Assembly (NCBI GenBank): GCA_035454885.1
Contig: DATIGE010000006.1
Location: 1-61,785 of the forward strand
From: a bacterium
GTDB lineage: Bacteria > UBA10199 > JACPAL01 > GCA-016699445
Length of the DNA: 61,785 nt
Direction: 5' to 3'
Shown here: positions 13,180-61,785 of the stretch, one piece after another
How the letters are laid out: every line of letters starts with the position of its first letter
Numbering within the stretch: the stretch's first letter is position 1
Made by a program: the position numbers and the translations under genes
The notes under the pieces: model-generated
Databases searched by the model: none
Told to the model about the DNA's origin: nothing
Seen by the model: only the letters and a program-made list of their open reading frames with translations

Positions 13180-16100
13180 ATGAAGAAGACATGGGCGATC
13201 CTTTTTCTGCTCATCATGACGGCGGTTACCGCCTTCATGGCCGGTGACGCCGATGCATTTCTTTGCGTCGAGCCGGTGCACCCCGCGTTGGAGTTCAGTC
13301 CGCCGGGACTGGATTTCGGAGCGGTCCCCATCAACGGCTCCAAGTCAATGGGGCTCACCGTCACTTACCACAGCCAACGCTACTACGAGGGCAGCCTCTG
13401 CGTTTGCCGGTGCACCAATCCGGCCAGCGCCTCCGTAACGCTCTCGCTGCCGGCCGGCTCGCCGTTTACCGTGGACTCGACGTCCTTCACCCTCTCCGAG
13501 GAACAGTCGAAGACCGTTCAGGTCACTTACCATCCGACGGGCGCCGAGGGCATCCATACGGCGGACCTCACGGCCTCATTTTCGGCCGGCCCGCAGACCT
13601 TTGCGGCGAATCTGGTCGGCGCCGGATTCGTCGGGCAATCCAACCTGAACATCAGCGTGACCAGCTGGGATTTCGGTAACACGGAGATCGGCGTCGCCAA
13701 GTCCAAGGGGATCTTCATCCAGAACGAGGGATCCGCCCAACTTCTCGGCACGCTCTCGACCGCGTCGCCCTTCGGCGTCTCCTCCAGTTCCTTCTCGGTC
13801 GCGCCCGGATCCAACTACACCTTCTTTGTTTCGTTTCTGCCCGCCTCCCCGGGGCCGGCGTCGGGCGTCTTGAACGTCTCGAGCAACGACCCGGACGCCC
13901 CAGCGTTGGCCATCGCCCTGACCGGCAACGGGGTTCAACAGTACCTCGGGATTTCCACAGACAGCCTCGACTTCGGGACGATTCCGGCCGGCGAGAGCCT
14001 GACGAAGTTCGTTCGTGTCACCAATCTGGCCTGCACCTCGTGCGGCGACCCGTTCATCCTCAACCTGAGCAATTTCGGCGTGAACGGGGGATTCATCGTC
14101 ACGCCGCCGGCGGACGTTTCGCTCGCCGCCGGCGAATCCGCCGTCATCGGGGTCACGTTCGCGCCCTCAGGGAGCGGATCCAAATCGGGCAAACTCAGCT
14201 TCAGCACGAACGATCCGTTGAACGCGAATCTCCAAGTCGATCTCTCCGGCATTGCCGTCAATTCCAACCTGGACCCGTCTCTGCTCAGCATCGATTTCGG
14301 CGATTCGCATCTGGGCGCGACCAAGACGCGCACCTTCTCCATCCGGAACAAGGGCCTCTCGACGCTGACGATCTCCGGCATCTCCGCGCCCTCGTCCCGC
14401 CTCACCGTGGTCCCCTCCTCCGCCTCGATCGCGGCGGGCGCAACCCAAAGCTTCGAGGCCCGGTACACTCCGACATCTTTAAGCGCCACGACTCTCCCGA
14501 ACGAGGTCTTGAACGGCCAGCTGACGGTCTCAAGCAATGACCTCGGCTTGCCATCGATGAAGATCGACGTGGCCGGCCGGGGTGTCTCGCCCGTGATGAG
14601 CGTGACGCCGTTGGACGGCGCGCTCGCCGGCTCGCAGATCGACCTGGGAACACTCTACGCGGGAGACGTGGGGTTGTTCCGCCTCCACGCCACCAACACC
14701 GGAAACGAGCCCCTGACGATCGCGGGCGCGACGACGTCGCTCAGCCTCCTTTCGGCCCAGGGATTGCCGCTCACGGTGGCCCCTCAGTCCACGGCGACGT
14801 TCTACGCTCGCTACGCGCCCGCCGCAGAGGGATCTCACTCTGCCGGCTGGACGATCGCCTCCAACGACTTTTTTCAACCGTCGGCCGCTCTCGCTCTCAA
14901 GGCCACGGCCGTCTCGTCCCTGGACCTCGCCGCCGACCGCCTGGAGATCACACAGGGCATCCAGGACCCGGACAACAGTCTCCCTCTCCTCGCGGGCAAG
15001 AGGACGGTCGTGCGGACGTTCGTCGCATCGACGATCCGAGGCGTCGCGAACACCTCCAATACCATCCGTCGTGTCGACGGCGTCCTGCACGTCCTGAAAA
15101 ACGGATCGGAGGTGCCGGGCTCGCCACTGGCCTCCCAGAACGGCCCGATCTCCGTGGTCCCGTCCCCCGACCGCAAGGTCTCCGACGCGACGCTCAACTT
15201 CGCGGTGCCCGAATCTTTCGTGAAGGGAACGGAGTCCGACCGGTGGACCTTCCGCGCGGACATCAACCCCGCCGCGGGGGGACGCGTGGAACGATTGATG
15301 GAGTCCGCTTACGGCAATAACGTCGTCTCCGAGGAGCTGTCCCTCTACGAGAACTACAAGCCCGTCGTGCATTACTTTCCCCTCACGTTCGTGGACGGCA
15401 GCAACCATGTCCTCTACGCCCTGCCCAATGAGACGCGCATGGCCGAGGGGGCGAATCTCCTAAAAAAAATCTTTCCGGTCTCGGGCCTGACTTACGTCCG
15501 CCGCAATCCCATCGCGCTGCGCGAAGGCTGGGGGAATGACAAGTGGTTCCAGGCCCTCTTCTTCGCCGCCCACCTAGGCAACCAGCCCGTGCCGGACCGC
15601 GTCTACGGCTGGCTTCCGGAGAGTTTCAACGGCGGGCGCGCGGAGGACATTCCCGGACGCGTCGCCTACGGAGGCGGTCTCGCGTCGCCGGTGGTCGGCC
15701 AGGAGACGTTCGCCCACGAGATGGGCCACACCTACGGCCTCTGCCACACGCATTACGTGGAACGCTACGGCGGGAGCGGAGACCGTTGTTTCGCGACCTT
15801 GGACGGCGAGAACTACGACGACGGCCACGCCATCCAATTCAGCGCCATCACGGAGGTCGGCTTCGACGCCGATTCGCTCCGGACGGTCGCCCCCATCGCG
15901 TGGTCGGCCTACGGTTCCTGCTGCGCGGACGTGACCTGCGACAACGGGCTCACCTACACGGACTGCACGGGGGCCGTTCAGGAAGGCTGTCACACCAGCC
16001 AATGCGTCGCGGTCACCTGCGGCGACGGCTCCGGCTTCACCGACTGCGCGAACCAAAGCGTCCCCGCCGGCTGCGTCGGAAAGATCACCAAGTCCTGCTC

Positions 16101-17907
16101 GTCCTCCGGCGCCATCGACGTCATGGCCTACCGGCAGAACTCCGGCCAGTCCCGATGGATCCACCCGCAGCGCTATCAATACCTCTTTCAGAGGCTCCGG
16201 AGCCGCGCGGCCGACCCCAGCAACAGCCGCGGCTGCGGCAACCTCAAGAGCTGCGCGGCGACGGAAAGCCGGCCGTCGCTCCTCATCGCGGGCCAGATCA
16301 CGTCGGACGGCTCCGCCGGCATGTCTCCTCTCTACTCGTCGTCTTCCATACCGGACCTCCCGGACGACGGCGCCGCCGGCTCGACGCCCTACACGCTCCG
16401 CCTGATCGACGCGGCCGGGGCCGCCCTGATGGACTATCCCCTCCGGTCGGGGCAGGCCTCCGCCCTGGAGGATGCCGACCAGCCGGGCCCGGGCGGCCTC
16501 GCGTTCTCGCTCGTGGTCCCCGAGCTCGACGGCTTGGGCGGCGTCCAGCTTCTAAACGGGGACGACGTTCTCACCGAGCGCCGGCGGTCCGCCCACGCCC
16601 CCGCCGTCACGGTCACCTCTCCCACGGGCGGCGAGTTGATGGATGGCGTCCTTGCCGCCGCATGGAACGCATCGGACGAGGACGGCGACGCGCTCACCTA
16701 CTCGGTCCTCTATAGCGCCGACGGCGGCGCGAGCTTCCGCGTGTTGGGAGTTGATCTGACCGACGTCTCGATCGCCTACGACGCCTCGCGCCTCCCCGGA
16801 GGCAAAGAGGCCTTCGTCCGCGTGATCGCAAGCGACGGTTTTCTCACGACGTCCGCCGATTCGCCCCCGTTCGCGGTCGGCGGCAAACCTCCCCAACTGA
16901 CGATTTTGTCGCCCGCCGACGGTGAGACGGTCCTCGCGGGAGCGGCGGTCGTCTTAAGCGTCGAAGCCAGCGATCTGGAGGACGGCGTCCTGACGGGATC
17001 ATCGATCCATTGGACATCCGACACGGCGGGAGACTTGGGCTTCGGCAATCCCCTGACGGCCAATCTCACGGCCGGCCCCCATCGGATCACGGCCCTGGCC
17101 GCCGATTCCAATGGCGACGAAACCGTCGCCACGGTCTCCGTACTCGTCGCCGACGGCGCGCACGCACCGCGCGCGGACGCCGGTCCGGATCAGACGGTGG
17201 ATGAAAAATCATCCATCACCCTGGATGCCTCAACATCCTCCGATCCGGACGAGGGCGACGTCTTGAGCTACTCGTGGACCCAGGTATCCGGGCCGCCGGT
17301 CGCCCTCGGCGGCGCGAACACCGCGCAGGCGACGTTCACGGCCCCTTCCGTCGCATCGGACAAATCCCTCCAATTCGAAGTGGAGGTGACGGATGCCGAC
17401 GGAAACACGGCGACGGATCGCGTGACCGCCGTCGTCAAGAACGTTGCGTTTCCATCCCTAATTCTCTCGACAAAGGAAATCGATTTTGGCACGGTCGCGG
17501 TGGGGGAACGAGCCGCCGCCGCTTTCACGATCACCAACGGCGGAAAAGAAACGCTGACCATCAAGGGGATGGAAACAAGCCGGACCGCGTTTTCGGCCGA
17601 CCCCACCACGGCCACCTTGGAACCCGGACAATCGCTCGACATTCATCTGACCTTCCGGCCCGCGGAAGAGGCCGTGTACGCGTCCAACCTCTACGTGCGG
17701 AGCGACACCGCGGCCGGAGCGCTCTCCCGCATCGTTCTGAAGGGAACGACCAACCGCCCCAAGTCGGCTTGGAACGACAACGGCGCCGGCGCGAGCCTCC
17801 TGCCCCAAGCAGACGACGGAACCGGGGACGTTTCATTCTCGCCGGACCTCTCTCCCGGAGCAGGCAGCTCCGCCGGCGGATGCAGCCTGCTTGGAGGGGG
17901 ATTTTGA
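13180..17907 (+). CDS. Secreted metzincin metalloprotease with ASH and PKD domains
   Basis: This 1575-residue protein has a Sec signal peptide (residues 1-27). About five choice-of-anchor D/ASH (HYDIN-like) beta-sandwich repeats follow (about 35-590), recognised by recurring LDFG-x-V-x-x-G openings. A protease domain contains the full metzincin zinc motif HExxHxxGxxH (H846, E847, H850, G853, H856) and a likely Met-turn DVMAY about 145 residues later, with a Cys-rich insert between. Two Ig/cadherin-like segments, a PKD-like domain (about 1328-1425) and a last ASH domain (about 1428-1535) complete it. The C-terminus is short, GGCSLLGGGF, and may be a surface-sorting tail. The start has an AAGGAGG Shine-Dalgarno. 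It is probably cotranscribed with the next lipoprotein gene. Confidence 0.85.
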   Translation: MKKTWAILFLLIMTAVTAFMAGDADAFLCVEPVHPALEFSPPGLDFGAVPINGSKSMGLTVTYHSQRYYEGSLCVCRCTNPASASVTLSLPAGSPFTVDSTSFTLSEEQSKTVQVTYHPTGAEGIHTADLTASFSAGPQTFAANLVGAGFVGQSNLNISVTSWDFGNTEIGVAKSKGIFIQNEGSAQLLGTLSTASPFGVSSSSFSVAPGSNYTFFVSFLPASPGPASGVLNVSSNDPDAPALAIALTGNGVQQYLGISTDSLDFGTIPAGESLTKFVRVTNLACTSCGDPFILNLSNFGVNGGFIVTPPADVSLAAGESAVIGVTFAPSGSGSKSGKLSFSTNDPLNANLQVDLSGIAVNSNLDPSLLSIDFGDSHLGATKTRTFSIRNKGLSTLTISGISAPSSRLTVVPSSASIAAGATQSFEARYTPTSLSATTLPNEVLNGQLTVSSNDLGLPSMKIDVAGRGVSPVMSVTPLDGALAGSQIDLGTLYAGDVGLFRLHATNTGNEPLTIAGATTSLSLLSAQGLPLTVAPQSTATFYARYAPAAEGSHSAGWTIASNDFFQPSAALALKATAVSSLDLAADRLEITQGIQDPDNSLPLLAGKRTVVRTFVASTIRGVANTSNTIRRVDGVLHVLKNGSEVPGSPLASQNGPISVVPSPDRKVSDATLNFAVPESFVKGTESDRWTFRADINPAAGGRVERLMESAYGNNVVSEELSLYENYKPVVHYFPLTFVDGSNHVLYALPNETRMAEGANLLKKIFPVSGLTYVRRNPIALREGWGNDKWFQALFFAAHLGNQPVPDRVYGWLPESFNGGRAEDIPGRVAYGGGLASPVVGQETFAHEMGHTYGLCHTHYVERYGGSGDRCFATLDGENYDDGHAIQFSAITEVGFDADSLRTVAPIAWSAYGSCCADVTCDNGLTYTDCTGAVQEGCHTSQCVAVTCGDGSGFTDCANQSVPAGCVGKITKSCSSSGAIDVMAYRQNSGQSRWIHPQRYQYLFQRLRSRAADPSNSRGCGNLKSCAATESRPSLLIAGQITSDGSAGMSPLYSSSSIPDLPDDGAAGSTPYTLRLIDAAGAALMDYPLRSGQASALEDADQPGPGGLAFSLVVPELDGLGGVQLLNGDDVLTERRRSAHAPAVTVTSPTGGELMDGVLAAAWNASDEDGDALTYSVLYSADGGASFRVLGVDLTDVSIAYDASRLPGGKEAFVRVIASDGFLTTSADSPPFAVGGKPPQLTILSPADGETVLAGAAVVLSVEASDLEDGVLTGSSIHWTSDTAGDLGFGNPLTANLTAGPHRITALAADSNGDETVATVSVLVADGAHAPRADAGPDQTVDEKSSITLDASTSSDPDEGDVLSYSWTQVSGPPVALGGANTAQATFTAPSVASDKSLQFEVEVTDADGNTATDRVTAVVKNVAFPSLILSTKEIDFGTVAVGERAAAAFTITNGGKETLTIKGMETSRTAFSADPTTATLEPGQSLDIHLTFRPAEEAVYASNLYVRSDTAAGALSRIVLKGTTNRPKSAWNDNGAGASLLPQADDGTGDVSFSPDLSPGAGSSAGGCSLLGGGF

Positions 17908-21819: not shown

Positions 21820-21834
21820 GCAAGGGCTATGCCA
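21820..21834 (-). promoter_or_regulatory. Sigma-54 (-24/-12) promoter
   Basis: On the minus strand the sequence reads TGGCATAGCCCTTGC, giving the invariant GG, exactly ten bases, then GC, within the TGGCAY-N5-TTGC consensus. The predicted start is near 21808, 20 bases before the lipoprotein ATG. About 100 bases upstream (21896-21902 and 21931-21937) lie inverted arms CCTCCAG and CTGGAGG, a possible activator site. Confidence 0.75.
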
Positions 21835-40665: not shown

Positions 40666-40680
40666 TGGCACAGTTCTTGC
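40666..40680 (+). promoter_or_regulatory. Sigma-54 (-24/-12) promoter of first giant gene
   Basis: TGGCACAGTTCTTGC has GG, exactly ten bases and GC, and matches TGGCAC-N5-TTGC in full. The predicted start is near 40692, leaving about 8 bases before the ATG at 40700, so the mRNA leader would be very short. Confidence 0.8.
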
Positions 40681-40699: not shown

Positions 40700-43600
40700 A
40701 TGTGTGATCCGACCATTACCAGCTGTCCTACGGACGGAGGGGCACCCCTGTCTTCCGTTTTCCCTCAGGACGGTGGTCCCGACCCCCTCGTGTCGGTTCC
40801 GCCGGCCAACGACACGGGTGTCTCAGATGCCATGGCGACCGGCGGAGGCACGAACTGCCTCCCCCCGATGCTCTGCGCCTTGCACCCGTTACCCGTCATG
40901 AGCCCGGCGCGAGCCCAGATCTTCGTCGATCCGCAAAGTACGGATGGACCTGTACGTCGCAGCCCTTTGGCCTTGCCCCCTTCCATTATCGAGGCCCTGA
41001 TCAATGCACCCCTGGTGTCCTGGCCGCGGGACCGCCAGTCCTTCCAAGCACCCTCCCCCAATTCGGTCGTCACCTTAAACGACCGGAACGGTCTTCTGGA
41101 GATTTCCAACCAATATGACCGGGAGTATCAACTGGGCCGGGAGTCGCTCGCGGACATTCGAAGCCGTCTGACGGCCGCGCGGGCCTCCAACGACCCCGCC
41201 GAGATTAGCCGCATCCTTGACGAGATCGCACCTCACCTCGATCAGTTCGGCCGAACCGCCAGAATGATTCAAGATGTCCACACCCAAAACGGACTGAACG
41301 ACTATTCGACGATCGAAAACTGGTTGAACCTCCTCTATGCCGATCGCAGGTCTCAACCGTATTCCGACCCCTCCCAAACCTCGACCGAGTCCATCCGTCT
41401 CGAAGGCGTGATGCTGGGCTTCGGCCTGGCGGGGATCAACAAACACGACACCTCGCAACGTCTTGGGACCGCCGTGAAACTGATGATGGAGCATGAGGCG
41501 CGCGCGATGGCCTCCGAATCCCGTTGGAGCGGGACACGGGTCCTCGGTCTCTGGGGGACCAATCTCGCGGTCGTGGGCGTTTCCGCGGACCAGACCTCGG
41601 CCTATCATCAGGCACTGCGCACCCGCGTTTTGAATTTCTTCCGGACGAATCAGCCATTGCCGGAGGACATCGTACGCTCCATGGGTCTGCAACACTTAAA
41701 CACGAACGATCTGGCCGGGAGGGATTGGCTCGTCGGAAATCCGCGGAACATGGGTCTCACAACCGGCCACGCCTCCGTGGATATTCCGGCCGAAGACGTC
41801 CAACCCATCCGGGCCGACCAGCGCGTTACTCAGGCTTTGAAGGAAATGGCGGCCGCCGAGGCGGAAGCCAAAAGGTTGGGCCGCGAGACGTTTACCGACG
41901 TCGTGCCGGCGAATAGCCCGTCCCGCGCGCGCGCCGAGCGTCCCTTGGCCCGGAGCCCGAGGATCATCCCTGCGGGGACCGACCTGGCGGACATCCCCGC
42001 GCTGCCGCCCCAGCCGAGGGGCCAGGCGCCACAGGAGGCCACGGCGGCGGACGTCAATCCAAGACCGGGCCACGACGCGGGCCATTCGATCGGCCATCAG
42101 ACCCAACTGACCAGCCTCGTCAGTCAAGCTGCGGGGTCCGTTCCGGCAAACGGGGGCGATGTCACACGCACCCACGAACTCATCGACCAAGCCCTTCAAT
42201 TCATGGACAACCCGGAGCCGCGCCAGCCCGCCGTGAGCGTCGAGTCCCACTTGGAGCATGGACGCGATATTTCGCTGGAGCACTACCGTTTCGAGGGGAT
42301 CCTCCGTCCCGAATTCTTCCCTCAACTTTTGCACGAAATCGCCGGAGGACGGCGCGTGTTCATCCAACAGGTCGAAATCCGGGACATGTTCGGCCACAGC
42401 ATGGACCATGCGCCCGACGCGCGGGATACGATGCTTCGGCGAACCCTGGACATCACGATCGCCGGACACGAATACCACGGCCTGGAGGTCTACGCCTCGC
42501 TGAAGGGCGACGAAATCAGGATCGGCCTGATCGAACCGCCGGGCACCCGGCTTTCGGACGCCGACCTGGCGCGCGCCTCGGATTACATCAGCACGAACGC
42601 CCGGCGCATCTTCCCGAATGTGACCCATCACTCCGTTCACAAGGTTCCTCCGCTTCCCGGAGGGTTTTTCGACGGCCGTGGTTACGCCATCGAAAGCCGG
42701 ACGGTGGATGGCCGCACCGAACGGATCGTGCACATCGACGGTGAGCCGCTGACCGACGCCCAACGCGGGGAATTCATCAGCGTCGTTCAAGAGGCCCACG
42801 GCATCCGCATCGAGCCGTCCGAGATCCGCGGAGTTGACAGCATCGCCAACGTCGCGCAGGTGGAGCGTTGGAACGGCTATTTTCGCGTCAGCGAAGCCGG
42901 ACGGCCGATCTATATCAACCTGCCGCCGGGAACGACGCCCCCTCCGGGTTTCGTACCGGGCCACAGCCCCTATGACATCACCTTGACGCCGATGGTGGAG
43001 GTGCCCGCCGGAAGCCCGCCCGAAGTCATTCAAATGGCGATCGAGCGGACCGACCGCATGGCGAACGAAATGAAGAGCATGGGCATCAACCGCCCGAATC
43101 ACGTCTCCGATGCGCAGGCTGCCGCTCCGCGGCTGAGCCCCGACGGAACGGGCGTGGTCGTCGATCCGCGCGCCCCCCGGGCCGACCGGGCCGCCCCTCT
43201 CGACAATCAGGTCCGTCTCGGATGGATCGAGAGGCTCCAGGCCACGCGCGGAGGACGCGTCCAGATGAACGCCGGAATGTTCGGGTTGGCCAGCGTCATC
43301 ACCCAGGGAAGCGTCCACCTCCTGACGGGGCATTCACAGTTCGCCAATCCTTCATTTTATCTCCAGATGGCCCCCGATTACGGCCTCATGGCCGCGGGAA
43401 CGGCGGTGGGTGAGACGGGGGCCAGGGCCTCTCTTCTCGCGCGAAGTGGGGAACTCTTCGTCCGAAATCCGGAAACGGGACAACGCTTTTTCAACCAGGC
43501 GGCGATGAGAACCGAACTCTCGGGTCTTCGAGGAGTCGGCGTTCATGGCGCCGGAATGCTTGGGGCCGTTCTCATGATGGAACTCGGCCATGGGCAACTG

Positions 43601-45004
43601 AACGCCACACAGACGGGGCGCACCCTGGTCGGCATGACGGCCTCCACATTGGCCGCGCGAGGTCTTACGTACGGAACCCTTTACGGCTTGGAGTACGCCG
43701 GAGTGCTTTCCGCCCCTGCCCGCGCCGCCGCCCTCCGGTCTCCTTGGACCGCCGTCGGCGTTTTGGCCATCGAGGCGGTCGGCCTCGCGGTCAATGAAAT
43801 TTATTGGGCCAATCGGGACCGGGCCGAGGCGGAGAGGGATCTGCGCGCGACCGTCGGAAGCCGGATGCACGCCCTCGACGAAATGATCGCTCACAACACC
43901 CTCACAAACGAGGACGGCTCCGTCAATGAAGCGGAGCTACGGCGCCATCAAACGGCCGTCCGGGAGCTCAATGACGCCGTCTGCCAACTCATGGTCTTCC
44001 AGTTTGGCCAACAAACGGAGGAAGGGCGGGACTTCGTGTCGGCCCAATCCGACCTTCAAGGCGCGCGGGGCGAATTGAACGCGTTCCTTCAGGATTATCC
44101 CGAGATACGCGAGGAGATCCAGCGCCAGCCGAACCAAGAGATAGCGATCTTAAGGCGTCACGAGGAAAGGATGCACGACCGGTTTGCCAGCAACCCCTTC
44201 GACACAAGGAGCGGCTACGATTCGAGCCTGCCGCACAATAAACTGGGCATCATCGTCGGCAAACTGGAAACGGCCCAAAACGACTTGACCCGTGCCGAGC
44301 CCTTGTTTCGAGACATGGTCCGGAGGCGTCTCGAATCGGCCCCGATGACGCCGGACCCCGTAAGTCTTTATCAGAGCTCCGCAAGCCTTGCCGCCGGCCT
44401 GAGAAGCGACCCGGTCGCGCTCTACAACCAATTTTTTCATCCGGAGCAGGGTTATCTGGCCTCCCGCGTCCTCTATGCCGATCAGGTCCAGGCGCAGGGC
44501 GGCGACCCCCATTACCCATCCCCGCCTCCTCCGCCGGCTTACCGGCTGGTCCTGGACCCCACACCCGTCGCGCCCCTTAACGAGCTGGGTTTCGATCCGA
44601 CGAATTTCTTCTTTCGGCCTTCGCCCGAGCCCGGCTTCAATCCGTTCGGCCTCCCATTGACGGCCTCCTCGGACCCGCGTGTCGTCATGATTTCCTCGTC
44701 CTCGGGGACGCCGAGTTGGGCCCGGGACTTGAATCTGGAAAACGACTACGGGACACCGACCCCCTTGTTCGAATTGGATGCTCAGGGCCACCTCCGGCCC
44801 ATTTCGCCGCGGCCTCAACCGGCCGACGTCGCCCTGACGGTTTTCCCGGACGAAACCATCGGACCGCTGCAAACGAATAGCGACGTCATCGCCACCGATG
44901 CGGTCACGAGTCGTCCGACACGGCCCGTCGCCATGCTCAATGGACGCCCCGTCACTCGGTTGATCTTCGGAAACGCCCCCTCCGCGCTGATCCCGCGCCG
45001 CTAA
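40700..45004 (+). CDS. Giant protein of unknown function, paralogue A
   Basis: This 1434-residue protein has no signal peptide and no family that I recognise. It is clearly paralogous to the protein at 45.7 kb. Shared blocks include RLEGVMLGFGLAGINKHD, GLWGTN, a GHSMDHAPD/GHEYHG histidine-rich region (about 560-600), VAQVERWN and a late SDPVALYNQF. Five or so hydrophobic segments cluster about residues 855-1035 and could be membrane-spanning. An Ala/Arg/Pro-rich linker lies near 380-460 and a Pro-rich C-terminal 190 residues ends in unique sequence. The histidine-acid clusters might bind metal, but no known active site is recognisable. It is driven by its own sigma-54 promoter; the gene has no cotranscribed partner directly downstream. 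Confidence 0.82.
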   Translation: MCDPTITSCPTDGGAPLSSVFPQDGGPDPLVSVPPANDTGVSDAMATGGGTNCLPPMLCALHPLPVMSPARAQIFVDPQSTDGPVRRSPLALPPSIIEALINAPLVSWPRDRQSFQAPSPNSVVTLNDRNGLLEISNQYDREYQLGRESLADIRSRLTAARASNDPAEISRILDEIAPHLDQFGRTARMIQDVHTQNGLNDYSTIENWLNLLYADRRSQPYSDPSQTSTESIRLEGVMLGFGLAGINKHDTSQRLGTAVKLMMEHEARAMASESRWSGTRVLGLWGTNLAVVGVSADQTSAYHQALRTRVLNFFRTNQPLPEDIVRSMGLQHLNTNDLAGRDWLVGNPRNMGLTTGHASVDIPAEDVQPIRADQRVTQALKEMAAAEAEAKRLGRETFTDVVPANSPSRARAERPLARSPRIIPAGTDLADIPALPPQPRGQAPQEATAADVNPRPGHDAGHSIGHQTQLTSLVSQAAGSVPANGGDVTRTHELIDQALQFMDNPEPRQPAVSVESHLEHGRDISLEHYRFEGILRPEFFPQLLHEIAGGRRVFIQQVEIRDMFGHSMDHAPDARDTMLRRTLDITIAGHEYHGLEVYASLKGDEIRIGLIEPPGTRLSDADLARASDYISTNARRIFPNVTHHSVHKVPPLPGGFFDGRGYAIESRTVDGRTERIVHIDGEPLTDAQRGEFISVVQEAHGIRIEPSEIRGVDSIANVAQVERWNGYFRVSEAGRPIYINLPPGTTPPPGFVPGHSPYDITLTPMVEVPAGSPPEVIQMAIERTDRMANEMKSMGINRPNHVSDAQAAAPRLSPDGTGVVVDPRAPRADRAAPLDNQVRLGWIERLQATRGGRVQMNAGMFGLASVITQGSVHLLTGHSQFANPSFYLQMAPDYGLMAAGTAVGETGARASLLARSGELFVRNPETGQRFFNQAAMRTELSGLRGVGVHGAGMLGAVLMMELGHGQLNATQTGRTLVGMTASTLAARGLTYGTLYGLEYAGVLSAPARAAALRSPWTAVGVLAIEAVGLAVNEIYWANRDRAEAERDLRATVGSRMHALDEMIAHNTLTNEDGSVNEAELRRHQTAVRELNDAVCQLMVFQFGQQTEEGRDFVSAQSDLQGARGELNAFLQDYPEIREEIQRQPNQEIAILRRHEERMHDRFASNPFDTRSGYDSSLPHNKLGIIVGKLETAQNDLTRAEPLFRDMVRRRLESAPMTPDPVSLYQSSASLAAGLRSDPVALYNQFFHPEQGYLASRVLYADQVQAQGGDPHYPSPPPPPAYRLVLDPTPVAPLNELGFDPTNFFFRPSPEPGFNPFGLPLTASSDPRVVMISSSSGTPSWARDLNLENDYGTPTPLFELDAQGHLRPISPRPQPADVALTVFPDETIGPLQTNSDVIATDAVTSRPTRPVAMLNGRPVTRLIFGNAPSALIPRR

Positions 45005-45043
45005 GCTTCAAACGAGAAAATTATCGAGAAACGATTGTAAATC

Positions 45044-45493
45044 CTATCGTGGGGGGAAAAGGCGTCTGTTGAGGTCGTCCAAAGACTCCAAGGAAAGGGA
45101 CAAAACCGCCGTTTTTTGACGGATCCTCTTTTGCACGGCCGGATAGTCATTCACCAACAGTTCCAAGGCTTGACGATAGTGCTCCAACGCCAGACGCTGA
45201 TGTCGCGCCTGGCTGACGGTGGCGGGCAAATGTTCCTCTAGGGAAACCCTGGGATTCCGGGCCAACGCCTCTTCATCCGCCCCATTCCGAAGCAGCGCGG
45301 AAACGGAGGGAGGTAGGCCGGGATTTCCGGAAATCAAGCTGTCCCACTGATGGGCGGGGTCGGGAATCGTAAGAACGGCGGACGATGAGGCGGAGGCGCC
45401 GGACTCGCCCACCTCGCTCGGGCGGTTGCACGCAACGCCCAGGAGCGACGAGGAAAGGGACAGCAGGGAGATCGAGAGAAATCGCGTCAGCAT
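45044..45493 (-). CDS. Small lipoprotein between the giant genes
   Basis: This 149-residue protein starts at 45493, with AAAGGA 8 bases upstream; in-frame ATGs at 45514 and 45586 have poorer signals. The lipobox is LGVAC. The mature part is helical and Pro/Ser-rich near its start, with no recognised family; conserved features are AHQWDSLISGNPGLPPSVS and two charged helices. It lies on the strand opposite the giant genes, its end 40 bases from the stop of the first, so it is transcribed convergently with it and divergently from the second. Confidence 0.7.
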   Translation of the reverse strand: MLTRFLSISLLSLSSSLLGVACNRPSEVGESGASASSSAVLTIPDPAHQWDSLISGNPGLPPSVSALLRNGADEEALARNPRVSLEEHLPATVSQARHQRLALEHYRQALELLVNDYPAVQKRIRQKTAVLSLSLESLDDLNRRLFPPR

Positions 45494-45605
45494 GACGGCA
45501 TTCCTTTCGCTCATCCGGATCAAAAGTTGCTCGGAAAAGCCTTCATGGGCCCCGTCCTCCGGAGACCTGTCATAAATACTGGACACTTATTGGATCGTGG
45601 ACATC

Positions 45606-45680
45606 AAAAGTAATCAATACTTTCCCCACTTTGAATTCCATTTGGCATATAACATATTGATATTAAATATATTTTAACCT
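45606..45680. other. AT-rich promoter-upstream tract
   Basis: A 75-base stretch far more A/T-rich than its surroundings lies directly before the second sigma-54 promoter, with runs such as TATTAAATATATTTTAA. Such tracts upstream of -24/-12 promoters often carry IHF-type bending sites. No good inverted repeat is seen in it. Confidence 0.4.
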
Positions 45681-45688
45681 TCGCCGCA

Positions 45689-45703
45689 TGGCATGCCGAT
45701 TGC
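45689..45703 (+). promoter_or_regulatory. Sigma-54 (-24/-12) promoter of second giant gene
   Basis: TGGCATGCCGATTGC has GG, ten bases and GC in the TGGCAY-N5-TTGC consensus. The predicted start is near 45715. It covers the first codons of an open frame beginning at 45688, so translation should begin further down. Confidence 0.75.
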
Positions 45704-45717
45704 TCATTTCTTCCGCC

Positions 45718-48700
45718 ATGATCGTCAGGACCATTTCCAAATTGATCGCGGAACACCTCGGGAACGAGGGGCCAACAGAGGAAAACCACGGTTCGATGAC
45801 CGAGTCCTCGCCGGCCGGGTCCGCCGTGTCCGGTAGATGGCTGGCGTTGGGACAGGCCTTCTTCAAAGCCCCGCGCCTGTTCCAAGCGCTCCGTCCTTCC
45901 GACCGCACGCCCCCCCTCCTTCCTCCGTCCCTGATTGTGGACCTGATCCGCTCCCGCGAACTCTCTCTCCCTCCGGATCAAAGACAGACGGCCTTGCCGC
46001 CGCAATCCATCGTCACCCTCAATGCGCGGCCTGGCGGGATTGAGATCACGAACGAATACGACGCCACCTACCGGCGGGGCCTCGAGGCCGTCCGGGATCT
46101 CCGTGCGCTCTTGGAGTCGGCCGGTGCCTCCCCGGACCCGGCGGAAATGGCGGGCCTGCTCGAGGACGCCGCCGGCTTGGCCGAGGATTATGGAAAGGCC
46201 GCCGAAATGGTCCATCGCGTCCATACGCGCGACGGGCTGAACGAATACGCCACGATCGAGGCGTGGCTCGGTTCCCTATACGATGCGGCCCGCCGACACG
46301 CGGAGGCCGGACGTCCGGCCCAGGAAACCATCCGCCTCGAAGGTATCATGCTGGGTTTCAATCTCGCGGGCGTCAACAAGCACGACGCGACCTACCGCAC
46401 CGGCACGGCGGTCAAGCTCCTGATCAACGGCACGGCCCGGGATGTCGCCGCCGAGTGGGGCGGCGGGGCGCGGGGATTGGGGTTGTGGGGAACGAATACG
46501 GTCATCGGCGGCGTGCCCGAGGGCCGCGTCGAAGAGTTCCATCGGGAGGTCGAGGGCCGGGTCTATGACTTTCTCAAGCACGACCAGGCCCTCCCGGAGG
46601 AGATTTCGCGGCAGCTCGGCGGAAAAGACGTCCGCACGAGCGACCTGCCGGGGAGGCGCTGGCTTTTGCGCAGCCGCTCCCACCTGGGCCTCAGCGCGGG
46701 GCACCGGTCGCTGGACCTGCGCGTTTCCGACGTCCGCCCGGGCGACGCGGACCTCCGCCTCATCGCCCTTCTTGAAGGCTTGGCCGGCACCGAGTCCGCA
46801 GCCCGCGGCAAGGGCGGCATCGCCAAGGGAGGCGCCGTCGATTTCGCCCGTCCGGCCGGCGCGCGTCCGGCGCCGCTGCTTCGGACACCCGCGCGCCTGG
46901 CGCCCGGCACCGCGCCGCGGGACGTGCCCGCGATGGAGGCGCCCGAACGCGGAGCGCCGAGGACGCCGCTCGCGCTCGCGGACATTGAAGCCGGCCGCCT
47001 GCCCAGGCCCGCCCACGAGACCGGCCACCTGATCCGCCAGCGCATCGATCTGGATGGCTACCTCGCTCAAGCGGCCCGCGAGGCCTCATCGGGCAACGGC
47101 GACGGGGCGCGCGATCGCATTCGGGAGGCGATCGGTTTTCTGGACAATCCGGAGGCGAGACCTCCCGAATCGCTGCCCCGGTCCATCGCCGGCTTTCTGT
47201 CGGACGGCTACGCGCGCTCGCTCGAGCAGCATCGTTTTCCCGGCGTGTTCCGTCTGGAGCTCTTCCCTCAGATCGTGGAGCGCGCATTTCAAGGCGAACG
47301 GTTCTTCATCCAGATGGCCGAATACCGCGACTATTGGGGCCACAACCGCGAGCACGCGGCGGACCCGGGCGACTCGATGCACCGGCTCACCATGGACATC
47401 CTGGCTCGGGGTTACGAGTACCACGGCGTGGAGGTGTTGACGGGAACCCAGGGCGGCGACGAGGTCTATTTCGCCGTTCGCGGAACAACGAGCGAGGGCG
47501 CCGAACTGACCGACGCGGACGTCGCGCGCATCTCGGACCATCTCGCCACCCACTTCAACCGCATCTTTCAAAACGTCGAACACCACATGGTCGTGAAGGT
47601 GCCCGCGCTGACAGGCGGCCTCTACGACGGCCGTCCCTATGTCATCCAGGACGGATCGGTCCATGTGCAGGGCGAACCATTGACCGATGCGGCCAGAAGC
47701 GACCTGTCGGAGGTGATCCGCATGGCTCACGGGATCGAGATCGAGCCGTGCCGGATTTCGCGCGTCGAAAGCATCTCTTCGGTCGCCCAGGTCGAACGCT
47801 GGAACGTCTGGTCGCGCGTCGACGCCGCGACCGGACGGGTGATCGACATCACCCTTCCCCTGGACGCGACGCCGCCCGAAGGTTTCTTCCAACGCATCAT
47901 CCCCCTCTCCACCACGATCACGCCGGCGGTCGAGATTCCCACGGGCAGCTCGCCCGAGGTCATCCGACTCGCCATGGACCGCGCCGGAAAAATCGCGGAC
48001 GACATGAAGGCCGCCGGCGTCGATCGTCCTCAAGCGAACGCCTCGGACGCCGCGCCGCCACCGGTCGTCCGATTGGGCTGGCTTGAGAGAATGCAGACGT
48101 CGCGACCCGGCCGCCACGCCGTCCATGGCGGCGTTTTCGCCGTCGGCGACGCCGTATCCGACCTCATGCTGGGCGAGGGCGGCCGATGGGCGCACCTCGA
48201 CACTTACGGACATCTGGCCCGGACCTATCTCGGCTTGTCGCTCGGCACGGCGGCGGGAGAAACGGCGAGCCGAGGCGCCGTCGCGCTCTTCGACAACCGA
48301 TTGCTCGTCCGCCAGGGCGAAGCCGTCACCCTCAATCGAGCCGCGTTCCGCGCCGAACACGCGGGCGCCAAGGGGTTTGCGATCAAGGGCGGAGGTCTGT
48401 TGGGCGCCATTCTGGCTACGGAGATCCTCGGTTCGGGACGGATCCGCCTGGAGGAAACCGCGTGGACCGGGGGCAGCATGCTGACCGCCATGGGCACGTC
48501 GCGCGTCGCCCTGGCCGGTGCCGCGGGCACGGCGGAACTGGCCGGCTTCGCGCGATTGGCGCGGGGGCTCAAGACGCCCCATCCCGTTACGATGGCGGCG
48601 AGCGTGGTCCTCGAATGCCTGGTGATCAAGGGGATCGGACATTGGCGCCGGACGCGCGCGACGGCAGAGGCGGGCGACGGCGCACGCGACGCCCTGGCCA

Positions 48701-49503
48701 GGGCCATGCACGCCCTGGACGAAACCATCGCCCGGGGCGACGTCCTTGAATCGAGAGGCGATGTCCGGAACGTCACGGAAGCCTTCGGCGACCTGCTCCT
48801 GTTCCAGTTTTCCCAAATCCTTCCCGAAGGCCGCGCCTTCGTCGAAGCCCAGAGCGAGGCCGCCGAAACGGCGGAAACCCTCGACGGCCTCCTCGAACGT
48901 CACCCGGAGGCTTGGGCGCGCATCCAAGACATCCGGGAGGATCCGGCGGCTGATGACGGCGAAGAGGCCCGCCTCATCGCCGATCTCGTCGAGCACGAGG
49001 ATGCACGGGAGTCCTTGTACAGCCTCACGGGCGGTCGGGGCATAGGCCAAAGCGGGGCGCGCGACCTACAGGAGGCGACCGAACGTCGCGATGAGGCCCG
49101 CGCCGCGCTTCAATCGGCGGAAATCCGGTTCCAGGAGGCCGTGCAAGAGGCCCTCCAAAGAGCGCCCCGCGATCCGGCCGTCTCCATGCCGATCGGAGGA
49201 TCGATCTCCTGGCATTACCGAGCCTCCCTCGAGCGCGATCCGGTCGCCCTCTACAACCAGTTCCAGAACTACCTCGCGAGCCGCATTGCCATGGCGGACC
49301 AAGTCCAGGCCGGGCAAGGCGCGGACCTGACCGGACGATTCCCCGGCCTGATCAGCGGGGCCAAAAGTCCGGTCGAGCACGGGGTCGACGTCTCCGTCCC
49401 GCAAATCCCCCCGATGGACTTCGACCCAACCCTGCGGCTCCCCTCCACCGGCGCGCCCACGGACCCCATTTTGGATTTGCTGGGGCTGCCTGCCATGGAA
49501 TAG
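45718..49503 (+). CDS. Giant protein of unknown function, paralogue B
   Basis: This protein of about 1261 residues is the paralogue of the gene at 40.7 kb, collinear over most of its length. Shared blocks are RLEGIMLGFNLAGVNKHD, GLWGTN, GHNREHAADPGDSMHRL, GYEYHGVEV, VAQVERWN and RDPVALYNQF, plus the same cluster of hydrophobic segments in the last third. The N-terminus and Pro-rich C-terminus are shorter. The open frame extends to an ATG at 45688, but the sigma-54 promoter lies there, so 45718 (about 3 bases from the predicted RNA start) or 45796 is more likely. It carries no signal peptide. The next gene, a barrel protein, begins 10 bases after the stop. Function unknown. Confidence 0.8.
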   Translation: MIVRTISKLIAEHLGNEGPTEENHGSMTESSPAGSAVSGRWLALGQAFFKAPRLFQALRPSDRTPPLLPPSLIVDLIRSRELSLPPDQRQTALPPQSIVTLNARPGGIEITNEYDATYRRGLEAVRDLRALLESAGASPDPAEMAGLLEDAAGLAEDYGKAAEMVHRVHTRDGLNEYATIEAWLGSLYDAARRHAEAGRPAQETIRLEGIMLGFNLAGVNKHDATYRTGTAVKLLINGTARDVAAEWGGGARGLGLWGTNTVIGGVPEGRVEEFHREVEGRVYDFLKHDQALPEEISRQLGGKDVRTSDLPGRRWLLRSRSHLGLSAGHRSLDLRVSDVRPGDADLRLIALLEGLAGTESAARGKGGIAKGGAVDFARPAGARPAPLLRTPARLAPGTAPRDVPAMEAPERGAPRTPLALADIEAGRLPRPAHETGHLIRQRIDLDGYLAQAAREASSGNGDGARDRIREAIGFLDNPEARPPESLPRSIAGFLSDGYARSLEQHRFPGVFRLELFPQIVERAFQGERFFIQMAEYRDYWGHNREHAADPGDSMHRLTMDILARGYEYHGVEVLTGTQGGDEVYFAVRGTTSEGAELTDADVARISDHLATHFNRIFQNVEHHMVVKVPALTGGLYDGRPYVIQDGSVHVQGEPLTDAARSDLSEVIRMAHGIEIEPCRISRVESISSVAQVERWNVWSRVDAATGRVIDITLPLDATPPEGFFQRIIPLSTTITPAVEIPTGSSPEVIRLAMDRAGKIADDMKAAGVDRPQANASDAAPPPVVRLGWLERMQTSRPGRHAVHGGVFAVGDAVSDLMLGEGGRWAHLDTYGHLARTYLGLSLGTAAGETASRGAVALFDNRLLVRQGEAVTLNRAAFRAEHAGAKGFAIKGGGLLGAILATEILGSGRIRLEETAWTGGSMLTAMGTSRVALAGAAGTAELAGFARLARGLKTPHPVTMAASVVLECLVIKGIGHWRRTRATAEAGDGARDALARAMHALDETIARGDVLESRGDVRNVTEAFGDLLLFQFSQILPEGRAFVEAQSEAAETAETLDGLLERHPEAWARIQDIREDPAADDGEEARLIADLVEHEDARESLYSLTGGRGIGQSGARDLQEATERRDEARAALQSAEIRFQEAVQEALQRAPRDPAVSMPIGGSISWHYRASLERDPVALYNQFQNYLASRIAMADQVQAGQGADLTGRFPGLISGAKSPVEHGVDVSVPQIPPMDFDPTLRLPSTGAPTDPILDLLGLPAME

Positions 49504-49513
49504 ACCTCTCACC

Positions 49514-50710
49514 ATGCATGCTTTCGCCGGCACGGCCAAAGTCCGCCTGAGGTTCTTCCCGCTCCTTTTTTTGACGTTCCTTCTTCTCCCCGGGGTCTCC
49601 CGGGGAGAAACCACCGGCCTTTCCGGTTTCGACCTGCGCCTCTTCCGTCCGCCGGCCGACGGGAGCGGCCACTTGAACCTGCACGGTTCCCGGTCGTTGG
49701 GCCGGTGGAAATTCTCCCTGGGATCGATCTCCGATACGTCGCAAGGGGTGCTGAAGGTCACGAACCCCCTGACGGCGGATTCCGTCAAGGTCGTCGACCA
49801 ATATTTCACGAATCTTTTCGTCGGATCGGTCGGTCTCACCGATTTCTTTCAGGTGGGGCTGAGCCTTCCCACCGTTTATTTCGAGCAGGGGGAACATTTC
49901 GAAACCGGCGAGCCCTTCACGACCGCGGCCCTCGGGGACATCGGCCTCGAGACAAAGCTCGCGCTCCTCAAGGATTCCGGCCTCCGGCCGGGGATCGCCC
50001 TCGTCTCCATCACCACCTTTCCCACCGGCAGCACGGAGAGGTTCACCGGGTCCTCGAACGTCACCGAGGAGGCAAAACTGGTGGTCGACAAGAAGATCGG
50101 TCCCGTCACCCTGATCCTCAACGGGGGCTACCGGGTGATTCCAAGGACCCAAGTGGCCGATCTTGAGATCGACGACATGGCGACCTACGGCGCCGGATTC
50201 TCCTGGTCCCTTCCCTTCGGCTCCATGGATCTGATCGCGGAGGCGGACGGCGCCCTGGTCCTCGGCAATCCGCGGGAGAGGACCTCCCCTCTCGAATGGT
50301 TGGCCGGTCTGCGGCAAAGGGTTTTCGAGGGATTGAGCATCGAGTTCGCCGGCGGCAGCGGGGTCGGATCCGGCGTGGGCGGAGGCGATTTCCGGATCGT
50401 CGCCGGCCTGACCTTCCGGAACATCCCCCAGGAGAAGAAGTCGGAGGAAACCCTCCTTTCGGAAACGATCTCCTTCCAAAAAGGCCGATCCAAAGTCGAC
50501 CGCAAATCCGAGACTACCCTCGACCGCGTCGTGGATCTCCTGAAGGGCGATAAGAAAAACCAGGTCGAGCTGACGGGAGATCCGGAACTGACGGGGATCG
50601 TCATGGATGACCTCATGGCCCGGGGCGTCTCCCGTGGGCGCATGTCCGCGAACCCGCCGGAACCTTCCGAGACCAAGACGCGAACGGTCGCAGTTCGCGT
50701 GGTCAAATAA
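49514..50710 (+). CDS. Outer-membrane beta-barrel protein with degenerate OmpA-like tail
   Basis: This 398-residue protein has a Sec signal peptide ending at SRGE (residue 32). An alternating amphipathic barrel region (about 45-300) contains strands such as LFVGSVGLTDFFQVGLSLP, IALVSITTFPTG and GAGFSWSLPFGSMDLIAEADGAL. Residues about 318-398 resemble an OmpA domain at its start (ISFQKGRSKVDRKSETTLDRVVDLL) but lack the usual middle, so peptidoglycan binding is doubtful. It starts 10 bases after giant gene B and must be in the same transcript. Confidence 0.75.
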   Translation: MHAFAGTAKVRLRFFPLLFLTFLLLPGVSRGETTGLSGFDLRLFRPPADGSGHLNLHGSRSLGRWKFSLGSISDTSQGVLKVTNPLTADSVKVVDQYFTNLFVGSVGLTDFFQVGLSLPTVYFEQGEHFETGEPFTTAALGDIGLETKLALLKDSGLRPGIALVSITTFPTGSTERFTGSSNVTEEAKLVVDKKIGPVTLILNGGYRVIPRTQVADLEIDDMATYGAGFSWSLPFGSMDLIAEADGALVLGNPRERTSPLEWLAGLRQRVFEGLSIEFAGGSGVGSGVGGGDFRIVAGLTFRNIPQEKKSEETLLSETISFQKGRSKVDRKSETTLDRVVDLLKGDKKNQVELTGDPELTGIVMDDLMARGVSRGRMSANPPEPSETKTRTVAVRVVK

Positions 50711-51390: not shown

Positions 51391-51405
51391 TGGCATGCCC
51401 CTTGC
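51391..51405 (+). promoter_or_regulatory. Sigma-54 (-24/-12) promoter of Cys-rich repeat gene
   Basis: TGGCATGCCCCTTGC, followed by T, has GG-N10-GC and fits TGGCAY-N5-TTGCT. The predicted start is near 51417, and AAGGAGG at 51419-51425 then precedes the ATG at 51431, a well-formed short leader. It overlaps an in-frame ATG at 51395, which cannot then be the start. Confidence 0.82.
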
Positions 51406-59449: not shown

Positions 59450-61785
59450 ATGACAACCACAAGGTTTTTCGGAGGACTGGGTCTCGCAGCCCTTCTTTCT
59501 TTCGCCTATTCGCCGCTGGCGGAAGCCGCCACCATCACGGTCACGACAACCGCCGACACGCTGTCCGACGACTCCGACTGCACGCTCCGCGAGGCGATCA
59601 TCTCGGCCAACACCGACTCGAACGCCGGCGAGGACGCCTGCGCCGCGGGTTTCGGGACCGATACGATCGTCCTCCCCTCCGGCACGATCACCATCGCGAT
59701 TCCGGACACGGGCGTTCCCGACGCCACCGACGGCGATTTTGACGTCGTCGTCGACGATCTTGAGATTGTGGGCCTGGGCGCCGGAACTTCCATCATCGAT
59801 GGAGGCGGCATTGACCGAATCTTCGATGTCGGACCGGACGGAAGCAATCCGGCGATCCGCATCTCCGGCGTCACGCTCCAGAACGGCTCGGCGACGGGCG
59901 GGGGCCCCGGAGGCGCCATTTACATGCAGGGCACGGGGGTCTTGAACCTGGCCGATTGCGCGATTTCAAACAATACGTCCGCCGCTTCATCCGGTGGCGC
60001 CATCTTCAGCGCGTCGACCGGCTCCGTTCAGATCACGGATTGCGTCTTCGATACGGACACGGCCGCCGGATCCGGAGGCGCCCTCTTCATCGCCCACGGC
60101 TCCCCGTCCAATCTGACGCTGGTTCGAAGCCAATTCACCAACAACACGGCCGGCGGATCCGGAGGCGGACTTTTCTTGGCCAACGCCCGCGGTATTGTGA
60201 CCGCGACCGACTGCCATCTGGATGACAACACGGCCGCCGGATCCGGAGGCGCCCTCTTTATCGCCAACGGAGGCCCGTCCGCCCTTACCCTGTCAGGGTG
60301 CAGCGCCGACCGTAACACGGCTGGCGGTTCCGGAGGTGGTCTCTTCTTCGCCACCGGCAACGACAGTACCGTGGCGATCACGAACAGCACGCTGGACGAC
60401 AACAACGTCGGAGGATCCGGGGGAGCCCTTTTCGCCGCCTTAGGCGACAACAGCCCCTTGACGATGTCGGGGACCAGCGTCGACCGCAACACGGCCGCCG
60501 GATCCGGGGCCGGCGTCTTCTACGCCGCCGGAAACACGAGCGACACGACGCTGACCGACAGCACCTTTGACGACAACAACGCCGGCTCATCGGGGGCGGG
60601 CCTTTTCCTCAGTGTCACGAGCGGTTCCTTGACGATGTCCGGCGGGAGCGCCAGCCGCGACACCGTCACCGGAGGGTCCGGAGGCGGCATCTTCTACTCC
60701 ACCGGCGGCGGCGACATCTCGATGACGAACGTCACGCTCGACGACGACAACGCCGGCGGACCCGGCGGCGGCCTCTTCGCCTCCACAGGCAGCGGCGATC
60801 TGACGATGTCGGGGGGAAGCGCCAGCCGCAATACGGCTACCGCCGCGCCCGGTGGCGGCATCTTCTACTCTTCCGGCGGCGGCGACGCCTCGCTGACCAA
60901 CGTCACGCTCGACGACGACAACGCCGGCGGACCCGGCGGCGGCCTTTTCGCCTCCATGGCGAGCGGAGACATGACCCTTTCGGGAGGAAGTTTCAGCCGC
61001 AACACGTCCTCCGGACCCGGCGGCGGCGTCTTCTACAGCGCCGGCAGCGGGGTTGCCTCGGTGACGGGGACATTCATTGACGACAATACGGTCACAGCGG
61101 CAAGCGGCGGCCCCGGAGGAGGCCTTTTCTGCACCAGCGGCGGGACGGGGACGCTCACCGTCACCCGAACCAGCATCAGCCGCAACACCGCGGATTCCGC
61201 GGGAGGAGGAATCTATCTCGCCTCCGGGGGCGAGATGTCAGTCTTCGAGTCCTCCATCTCCGATAACGTGGTCCGCGCGGGAACCGGAGCACCCGGAGGG
61301 GGGATCTTCAATGGTCTGACCGCCCTGACGATGGTCGAAAGCGTCGTCAGCGGCAATGCGTCGGATCTGGATGGAGGAGGGATCTATAATCCCGGCGCTC
61401 CGGCTGAGATCGTCAACGCGACGGTCAGCGGCAATACGGCGATCGTCAACGGGGGAGGCGTCTACGCCCCCAACGGCGGCGGCCTCTTCAACGCCACGAT
61501 CTTCGGGAATTCGGCCGCCGCAGGCGGGGGTATCTTCAATCCCGCAGGCACCCTGACGACCAAAAACTCGATCATCGCCGACAACACGGGCGGTGACTGC
61601 ATCGCCCCCCTCACCTCCTTCGGCTACAACCTGGACAGCGACAGCACCTGCGGCCTGACCGGCGCCGGAGACCAGCCCGGCGTCAACCCCGACCTCGGCG
61701 CCCTGGCCGACAACGGAGGCCCGACTCAAACCCACGAGCCCAACACCGGCAGCCCCGCCATCGACGCCGGCAATCCCGCCGGGTG
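59450..61785 (+). CDS. CSLREA/choice-of-anchor Q beta-helix surface protein (3' end cut)
   Basis: The frame is open from the ATG at 59450, with AGAGGGGGAAT upstream, to the window edge: 778 codons, with no stop reached. A Sec signal peptide ends near AEAAT. CTLREAI (about residue 47) is the CSLREA motif. It is followed by right-handed parallel beta-helix rungs with recurring GSGGALF and GPGGGLF signatures, like chlamydial polymorphic outer membrane proteins. The last visible residues, LADNGGPTQTHEPNTGSPAIDAG, are the choice-of-anchor Q domain that precedes a C-terminal anchor. A large surface-exposed or secreted adhesin-like protein is likely. Confidence 0.88.
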   Translation, partial: MTTTRFFGGLGLAALLSFAYSPLAEAATITVTTTADTLSDDSDCTLREAIISANTDSNAGEDACAAGFGTDTIVLPSGTITIAIPDTGVPDATDGDFDVVVDDLEIVGLGAGTSIIDGGGIDRIFDVGPDGSNPAIRISGVTLQNGSATGGGPGGAIYMQGTGVLNLADCAISNNTSAASSGGAIFSASTGSVQITDCVFDTDTAAGSGGALFIAHGSPSNLTLVRSQFTNNTAGGSGGGLFLANARGIVTATDCHLDDNTAAGSGGALFIANGGPSALTLSGCSADRNTAGGSGGGLFFATGNDSTVAITNSTLDDNNVGGSGGALFAALGDNSPLTMSGTSVDRNTAAGSGAGVFYAAGNTSDTTLTDSTFDDNNAGSSGAGLFLSVTSGSLTMSGGSASRDTVTGGSGGGIFYSTGGGDISMTNVTLDDDNAGGPGGGLFASTGSGDLTMSGGSASRNTATAAPGGGIFYSSGGGDASLTNVTLDDDNAGGPGGGLFASMASGDMTLSGGSFSRNTSSGPGGGVFYSAGSGVASVTGTFIDDNTVTAASGGPGGGLFCTSGGTGTLTVTRTSISRNTADSAGGGIYLASGGEMSVFESSISDNVVRAGTGAPGGGIFNGLTALTMVESVVSGNASDLDGGGIYNPGAPAEIVNATVSGNTAIVNGGGVYAPNGGGLFNATIFGNSAAAGGGIFNPAGTLTTKNSIIADNTGGDCIAPLTSFGYNLDSDSTCGLTGAGDQPGVNPDLGALADNGGPTQTHEPNTGSPAIDAGNPAG
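60509..61190 (+). repeat. Tandem coding repeat of about 170 bases
   Basis: Four copies of a 56-58-codon unit begin near 60509, 60683, 60854 and 61022. Each starts GGIFYS or GGVFYA and carries one LDDDN-type and one SGGS-type rung. Copies at 60683 and 60854 are the most alike, with the DDDNAGGPGGGLFAS stretch repeated almost unchanged at the DNA level, so unit number may vary by recombination. Confidence 0.75.

Follow-up and report, generated by a model that had tools for sequence, protein, structure and literature searches.

Tandem giant proteins of a UBA10199 bacterium as a candidate, highly divergent family with two GGDEF-type cyclase-fold domains per chain

Introduction

GGDEF proteins normally need two chains for each product formed. 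In mammalian soluble adenylyl cyclase the C1 and C2 domains form a pair, and in Cas10 two palm domains pair. In the GGDEF family the signature motif sits in the loop between strands b2 and b3, and the ligand residues of PleD are D327 and E370 for metal, N335 and D344 for guanine and K442 for phosphate (PMC7288161).

Here we analyse two neighbouring genes in a 61,785-nucleotide stretch of DNA (the window; contig DATIGE010000006.1, assembly GCA_035454885.1) from a bacterium of the phylum UBA10199. Their products, P0001 and P0002, had been described from the sequence alone as giant paralogues that belong to no known family (the original prediction). From structure modelling we think it rather probable that they found a highly divergent family of giants under sigma-54 control, with a tandem pair of GGDEF-type cyclase-fold domains of which the first (domain A) is regulatory and the second (domain B) holds a metal-nucleotide site. 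The proteins are real, conserved and unlisted; according to the models they do not represent a new fold but a known one in strongly diverged form.

Results

The two open reading frames (ORFs) lie where they were first reported to lie and have the lengths given there (Table 1); they are collinear, aligning by BLASTP over 1255 columns with 682 bits and 38% identity. All five blocks said to be shared were located in both proteins (in P0001/P0002: RLEGVMLGF/RLEGIMLGF, GLWGTN, GHSMDHAPD/GHNREHAAD, YHGLEV/YHGVEV and VAQVERWN). From its first ATG the P0002 ORF spans 45688-49503 (1271 aa), and P0002 residues are numbered from that codon; because the sigma-54 site at 45689-45703 overlaps it, the start probably lies at or after the ATG at 45718. 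Searches of both proteins against Pfam, NCBIfam, PHROGs and PDB sequences returned nothing credible above noise, in agreement with the statement that neither has a recognised domain. A match of P0002 to PAX (E 0.019) was below the cut-off and biologically senseless.

The view that these proteins have no known family was not supported: structure prediction gives the core the GGDEF/nucleotidyl-cyclase fold twice, and for domain B the alignment described below yields a canonical register of the active site. The core, 735 aa long (P0002 residues 66-800), was modelled with AlphaFold2 from a five-row alignment at a mean pLDDT of 64.5, domain A lying mostly at 70-90. It consists of helices, domain A, helices and domain B with an insert, and its strand and helix order b-a-a-b-b-a-b-a-b is that of the nucleotidyl-cyclase fold (b1-a1-a2-b2-b3-a3-b4-a4-b5). 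The leading Foldseek matches of the core in the PDB were nearly all nucleotidyl cyclases, with soluble adenylyl cyclase 4cly giving the best E (2.6e-3), PleD 9g85 and SiaD 7e6g each a prob of 1.00, and DgcZ, GGDEF domains (TM-score to target 0.53-0.63) and Csm1/Cas10 as further matches. Folded alone, domain B reached pLDDT 72 and pTM 0.64, and 49 of its first 50 matches were nucleotidyl cyclases, GGDEF domains included; the best E was 1.2e-3 (prob 1.00), and TM-scores to target went up to 0.54. We base the fold assignment on the consistency of cyclase matches across the list and on the residue register, not on single E-values. Direct homology between domains A and B was not detectable by comparison of hidden Markov models (HMM-HMM, E 0.6), so the argument for an internal duplication is confined to the shared fold and the helix-cyclase-helix-cyclase order.

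The family was found in four of 46 genomes of the phylum, namely the present one (G000, two copies), G013, G027 and G033. G013 is the metagenome-assembled genome 'Deltaproteobacteria bacterium OFTM19', with its homologue on JAJFLM010000344; the G033 homologue is split across two contig ends (L010 and L012). The homologues are 24-52% identical. Beyond the phylum, a search of the genomes of 385 near and far relatives brought up no additional convincing member; searches of phage, plasmid and viral-contig sequences were likewise empty. A marginal match in one of the 385 (G332, E 7e-4) looks like chance when its frames are read. The four carriers belong to four different families, so that spread is not distinguishable from loss. 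The C-terminal part is missing altogether from the G027 homologue, so that what the family conserves is the core of 735 residues. In a five-row tree the two paralogues pair moderately (85/92), with a branch of 0.93 for P0001 vs 0.39 for P0002, which suggests that the gene was duplicated in this lineage; of the two copies, P0001 seems to evolve faster and to be partly degenerate.

A PF00990 search of the genome found 11 canonical GGDEF places, P0001 and P0002 not among them. When domain B was aligned with these 11 domains, HMM against HMM and unforced, FIQMAEYRDYWGHNREHAADPGD fell gaplessly on DxDxFKxxNDxxGHxxGD and GGDEVYFAV on GGDEFILLL; the domain B segments FIQMAEYRDYWGHN..DPGD..GGDEI lie equally gapless on the GGDEF active site. 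None of P0002 E545, D562, G590, D591 and E592 (equivalent to PleD D327, D344, G369, E370 and E371) varies among the five homologues, although identity falls as low as 24%, and N553 (N335) is kept in three. The signature itself reads GGDEV or GGDEI in P0002, G013 and G027, KGDEI in P0001 and RGDEY in G033, and P0001, besides this loss of one Gly, has Ser at the N335 equivalent and RD in place of GD. In domain A of P0002 (RLEGxMLGF..GLWGTN) the metal and base positions are G223, N270 (in the hairpin WGTN) and T240; judged by its residues, domain A is dead as a cyclase. The closing segments, 'LGLSAGH...LLEGLAGTESAARGKG' in A and 'TTITPAVEIP...AMDRAGKIADDMKAAGVDRP' in B, resemble on inspection the ending of GGDEF domains, 'vTvSiGva...LLxxADxALYxAKxxGRNR'. 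Column-shuffled controls reached the HMM-HMM scores in 6/200 cases for A and 2/200 for B.

The original prediction had read the shared histidine/acid clusters as a metal site. GHxxxHAxD and YHGxEV do lie in the GGDEF active-site region, where E545, D562, D591 and E592 are invariant; the histidines, however, are not conserved, GH being GF in G033, the second His being Asn in G027, and YHG being NG in G027 and gapped in G033. That the proteins are novel metalloenzymes of unrelated fold, with these clusters as the metal site, is very improbable: both paralogues carry them, but their histidines vary among homologues, their acids coincide with GGDEF positions and Foldseek lists almost exclusively cyclases.

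Several observations count against a GGDEF-type assignment. In hmmscan PF00990 matched neither P0001 nor P0002 nor the G033 homologue, and profile-profile comparison gave a probability of about 1% (E 0.03-0.04, counted for one comparison); it is because these scores are weak that profile libraries miss the domains. No Foldseek match passed E 0.001, the modelling alignment held five sequences only, and a pTM of 0.47 means that the pairing of A with B was modelled without confidence. Domain B is interrupted by the 110-residue insert, its first metal ligand is Glu instead of Asp, the RxxD inhibitory site (I-site) is absent, an equivalent of R446 is not evident and the final F of GGDEF is replaced by V, I or Y. 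Some of these changes bear on an alternative that we regard as quite possible without favouring it, in which both domains are catalytically dead and act as receptors for cyclic diguanylate (c-di-GMP) or GTP, or as scaffolds, with P0001 and P0002 in a hetero-complex. Domain A is without metal ligands, domain B has Glu for D327 and lacks the I-site, N335 and one Gly are lost in P0001 and G033, and degenerate GGDEF proteins are well documented in the literature as non-enzymatic partners. However, the strict invariance of E545, D562, G590, D591 and E592 across homologues of 24-52% identity speaks for selection to keep a metal/nucleotide site.

The claim that each gene has its own sigma-54 promoter was borne out. 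RpoN is encoded in the genome, and TGGCAY-N5-TTGC sites lie just upstream of both genes. In the 2.76 Mb genome TGGCAYN5TTGC occurs at 76 sites vs 5 for a reversed-pattern control, and 52 of the 73 testable sites are followed, 8-60 bp downstream, by an ATG-initiated ORF of 100 aa or longer vs 14% of random positions; as a class, these sites are therefore real promoters. The G013 homologue has such a promoter (TGGCATATCCATTGC) 18 bp upstream of its ATG, and none was seen when the regions upstream of the G027 and G033 genes were inspected. Sites often stand just 14-50 bp before start codons, so that leaders are very short. For the most part, this very large regulon consists of genes for lipoproteins, secreted proteins and giants without a signal peptide. 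Other signal-less giants with a Gly/Ala-rich hydrophobic stretch are encoded at L063, L066, L099, L107 and L006:1147-4398, four of them under sigma-54 sites; none of the five has a detectable sequence relation to P0001 or P0002, and no homology to the hydrophobic and C-terminal region of P0001 or P0002 was found in the other sigma-54 giants at E 10. At the contig ends L099:4735 and L100:4840 two ORFs have an identical start (NLFNYLDYRHFLRDWLQSAKKNYGFSYRFFSKRAGLKSPSLYKMVMD), each with a sigma-54 site ahead, which reflects either a recent duplication or an assembly break. A dispersed family of four small proteins ('KSSATVxYGKPVDYSEALQYASDNNKTxALxQI') also follows sigma-54 sites (L084:401-5015, L091:401-5015, L092:2217-5015 and L115:401-5015). 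Within the window, further sites precede a small secreted protein (51391-51405) and, on the minus strand, a lipoprotein-like ORF (21820-21834).

Elsewhere in the genome, L123:2230-14383 holds type III export genes (SctV, SctJ-like and FHA/SctD-like) alongside FHA and TPR proteins, and L109:435-1988 encodes a sigma-54-controlled, signal-less protein of 518 aa with an AvrPphF-ORF-2 (HopF2-like) match of 25.2 vs a cut-off of 25 and a weak protein-kinase match. That P0001 and P0002 are exported by this non-flagellar type III apparatus, as effectors or translocators that carry a cyclase-like domain out of the cell, is conceivable; we consider it unlikely. With 816 bits SctV does pass the curated threshold of 692 bits, FlhA staying under its own, and SctJ- and SctD-like genes are near; P0001 and P0002 have no signal peptide, the sigma-54 regulon includes other signal-less giants and the HopF2-like protein, and P0001 shares the N-terminus MCDPxxTxC with the G013 homologue. 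On the other hand, the N-termini differ in the G027 and G033 homologues, and no chaperone or secretion signal has been demonstrated for P0001 or P0002. Tight co-occurrence of family and apparatus was considered and rejected, since the apparatus is nearly phylum-wide (SctV above the cut-off in 38 of 46 genomes vs four with the family). The apparatus may also be one of those that lack a secretin, as in Myxococcales, for which no role is proven (PMC3459982).

Beyond the core, the hydrophobic segments first reported are present and weak; ordinary transmembrane helices are not established, and with peaks of 1.1-1.6 in a 19-residue Kyte-Doolittle window membrane insertion of the Gly/Ala-rich region is a guess. 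The Pro-rich tail attributed to both proteins is clear in P0001 only. No Pfam family exceeded the cut-off in the 180-aa ORF between the paralogues. The gene for a 398-aa secreted protein behind P0002 is probably co-transcribed with it; its product has a weak match to the OmpA C-terminus (E 0.049, below the cut-off). Elsewhere the window encodes a 1575-aa protein (13180-17907) with HYDIN/ASH-type Ig-like domains (six matches) and a PKD domain, and a tandem repeat with a period of 171, in about 2 copies that match at 83-87%, occupies 60630-61050.

Table 1. Positions of the paralogous genes, their predicted domains, promoters and adjacent ORFs in the window
Feature	Position	Strand	Remark
P0001 promoter, sigma-54 (-24/-12), TGGCACagttcTTGC / TGGCACAGTTCTTGC	40666..40680	+	exact consensus; 19 bp 5' of ATG
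P0001, paralogue 1, 1434 aa	40700..45004	+	domain B partly degenerate
P0001 domain A, degenerate GGDEF-fold, residues about 231-400	41390..41899	+	from alignment to P0002 domain A
P0001 domain B, GGDEF-fold with about 110-residue insert, residues about 529-844	42284..43231	+	
P0001 Gly/Ala-rich weakly hydrophobic region, residues about 858-1035	43271..43804	+	
Small lipoprotein-like ORF between paralogues, 180 aa	45044..45586	-	
P0002 promoter, sigma-54, TGGCATgccgaTTGC / TGGCATGCCGATTGC	45689..45703	+	one base off; 14 bp 5' of ATG 45718
P0002, paralogue 2, 1261 aa from ATG 45718	45718..49503	+	better-conserved copy
P0002 three long helices before domain A, residues 123-206	46054..46305	+	AlphaFold2, pLDDT mostly 60-94
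P0002 domain A, residues 214-383, b1-a1-a2-b2-b3-a3-b4-a4-b5	46327..46836	+	metal ligands replaced
P0002 helices before domain B, residues 441-515	47008..47232	+	
P0002 domain B, residues 515-800, GGDEF fold	47230..48087	+	insert residues 631-744
P0002 E545 (PleD D327), N553 (N335), D562 (D344)	47320..47373	+	gapless HMM-HMM match
P0002 GGDEV motif, residues 589-593	47452..47466	+	b2-b3 loop
P0002 K774 (PleD K442), in 'ADDMKAAGVDRP' = 'ADxALYxAKxxGRNR'	48007..48009	+	motif reading
P0002 Gly/Ala-rich weakly hydrophobic region	48103..48687	+	
P0002 C-terminal polar region	48688..49332	+	unknown fold; conserved in G013, partly in G033, absent from G027
398-aa secreted protein	49514..50710	+	10 bp past P0002 stop

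Discussion

With the GGDEF diguanylate cyclases (PleD, SiaD, DgcB, SadC; PF00990), P0001 and P0002 share the predicted fold and, with the variation noted above, the b2-b3 GGDE hairpin, the acidic, Asn and Asp positions of the b1-a1-a2 segment and a closing Lys helix of the AK..GR type. They differ in having no Pfam match, Glu for D327, no I-site, an insert of about 110 residues, tandem domain copies of which one is dead, and a giant C-terminal region. The soluble class III adenylyl cyclases (tandem C1-C2; 4cly) likewise have two cyclase-fold domains per chain and gave the best whole-core Foldseek E, but the motifs here are GGDEF-type, identity is 10%, the ATPase/TPR part is unmatched and the class III profile (Guanylate_cyc) in Pfam and NCBIfam matched neither protein. 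Cas10/Csm1 of type III CRISPR systems (9g9c) resembles them in its tandem GGDEF-like palm domains, one of them degenerate; however, the Cas10 profile in Pfam and NCBIfam was unmatched, no HD domain or zinc finger sign was seen, the Foldseek prob was only 0.51 and those neighbouring ORFs that were read included no recognisable cas gene, the window not being annotated gene by gene. The LapD/FimX-type receptors also use an inactive GGDEF domain for regulation, which is a functional analogy only, and P0001 and P0002 are without their EAL, HAMP and periplasmic domains.

In the GGDEF-type arrangement that we favour, a helical bundle would precede each cyclase domain, to be followed by the Gly/Ala-rich region and a polar tail. 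Domain A would be a dead regulatory pseudo-cyclase and the partner of domain B, which would keep its metal-nucleotide site and bind GTP or another NTP, the two perhaps packing as an intramolecular pseudo-heterodimer in the manner of C1/C2 or the Cas10 palms. Domain B might then either produce a cyclic nucleotide or sense one; since the first ligand is changed from Asp to Glu and the I-site is absent, a modified or sensing role is more likely than unaltered c-di-GMP synthesis. The C-terminal region may tether the protein to the membrane or to a partner, and P0002 would be the working copy, with P0001 as its faster-diverging, partly degenerate paralogue.

A bolder version, which we think improbable, is a single-chain, pseudo-heterodimeric GGDEF enzyme with one dead and one live domain, a single asymmetric site and a non-standard cyclic nucleotide as product, anchored or exported within the sigma-54-controlled giants. 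In either version, a chain with its own dead and live domain would be to bacteria what the tandem adenylyl cyclases and Cas10 are elsewhere, and the family would show how far GGDEF can diverge, out of reach of every profile library, with its site preserved. Signalling domains may also be concealed in further 'unknown giants' of the phylum, which is uncultured; several of these stand under a similar sigma-54 promoter.

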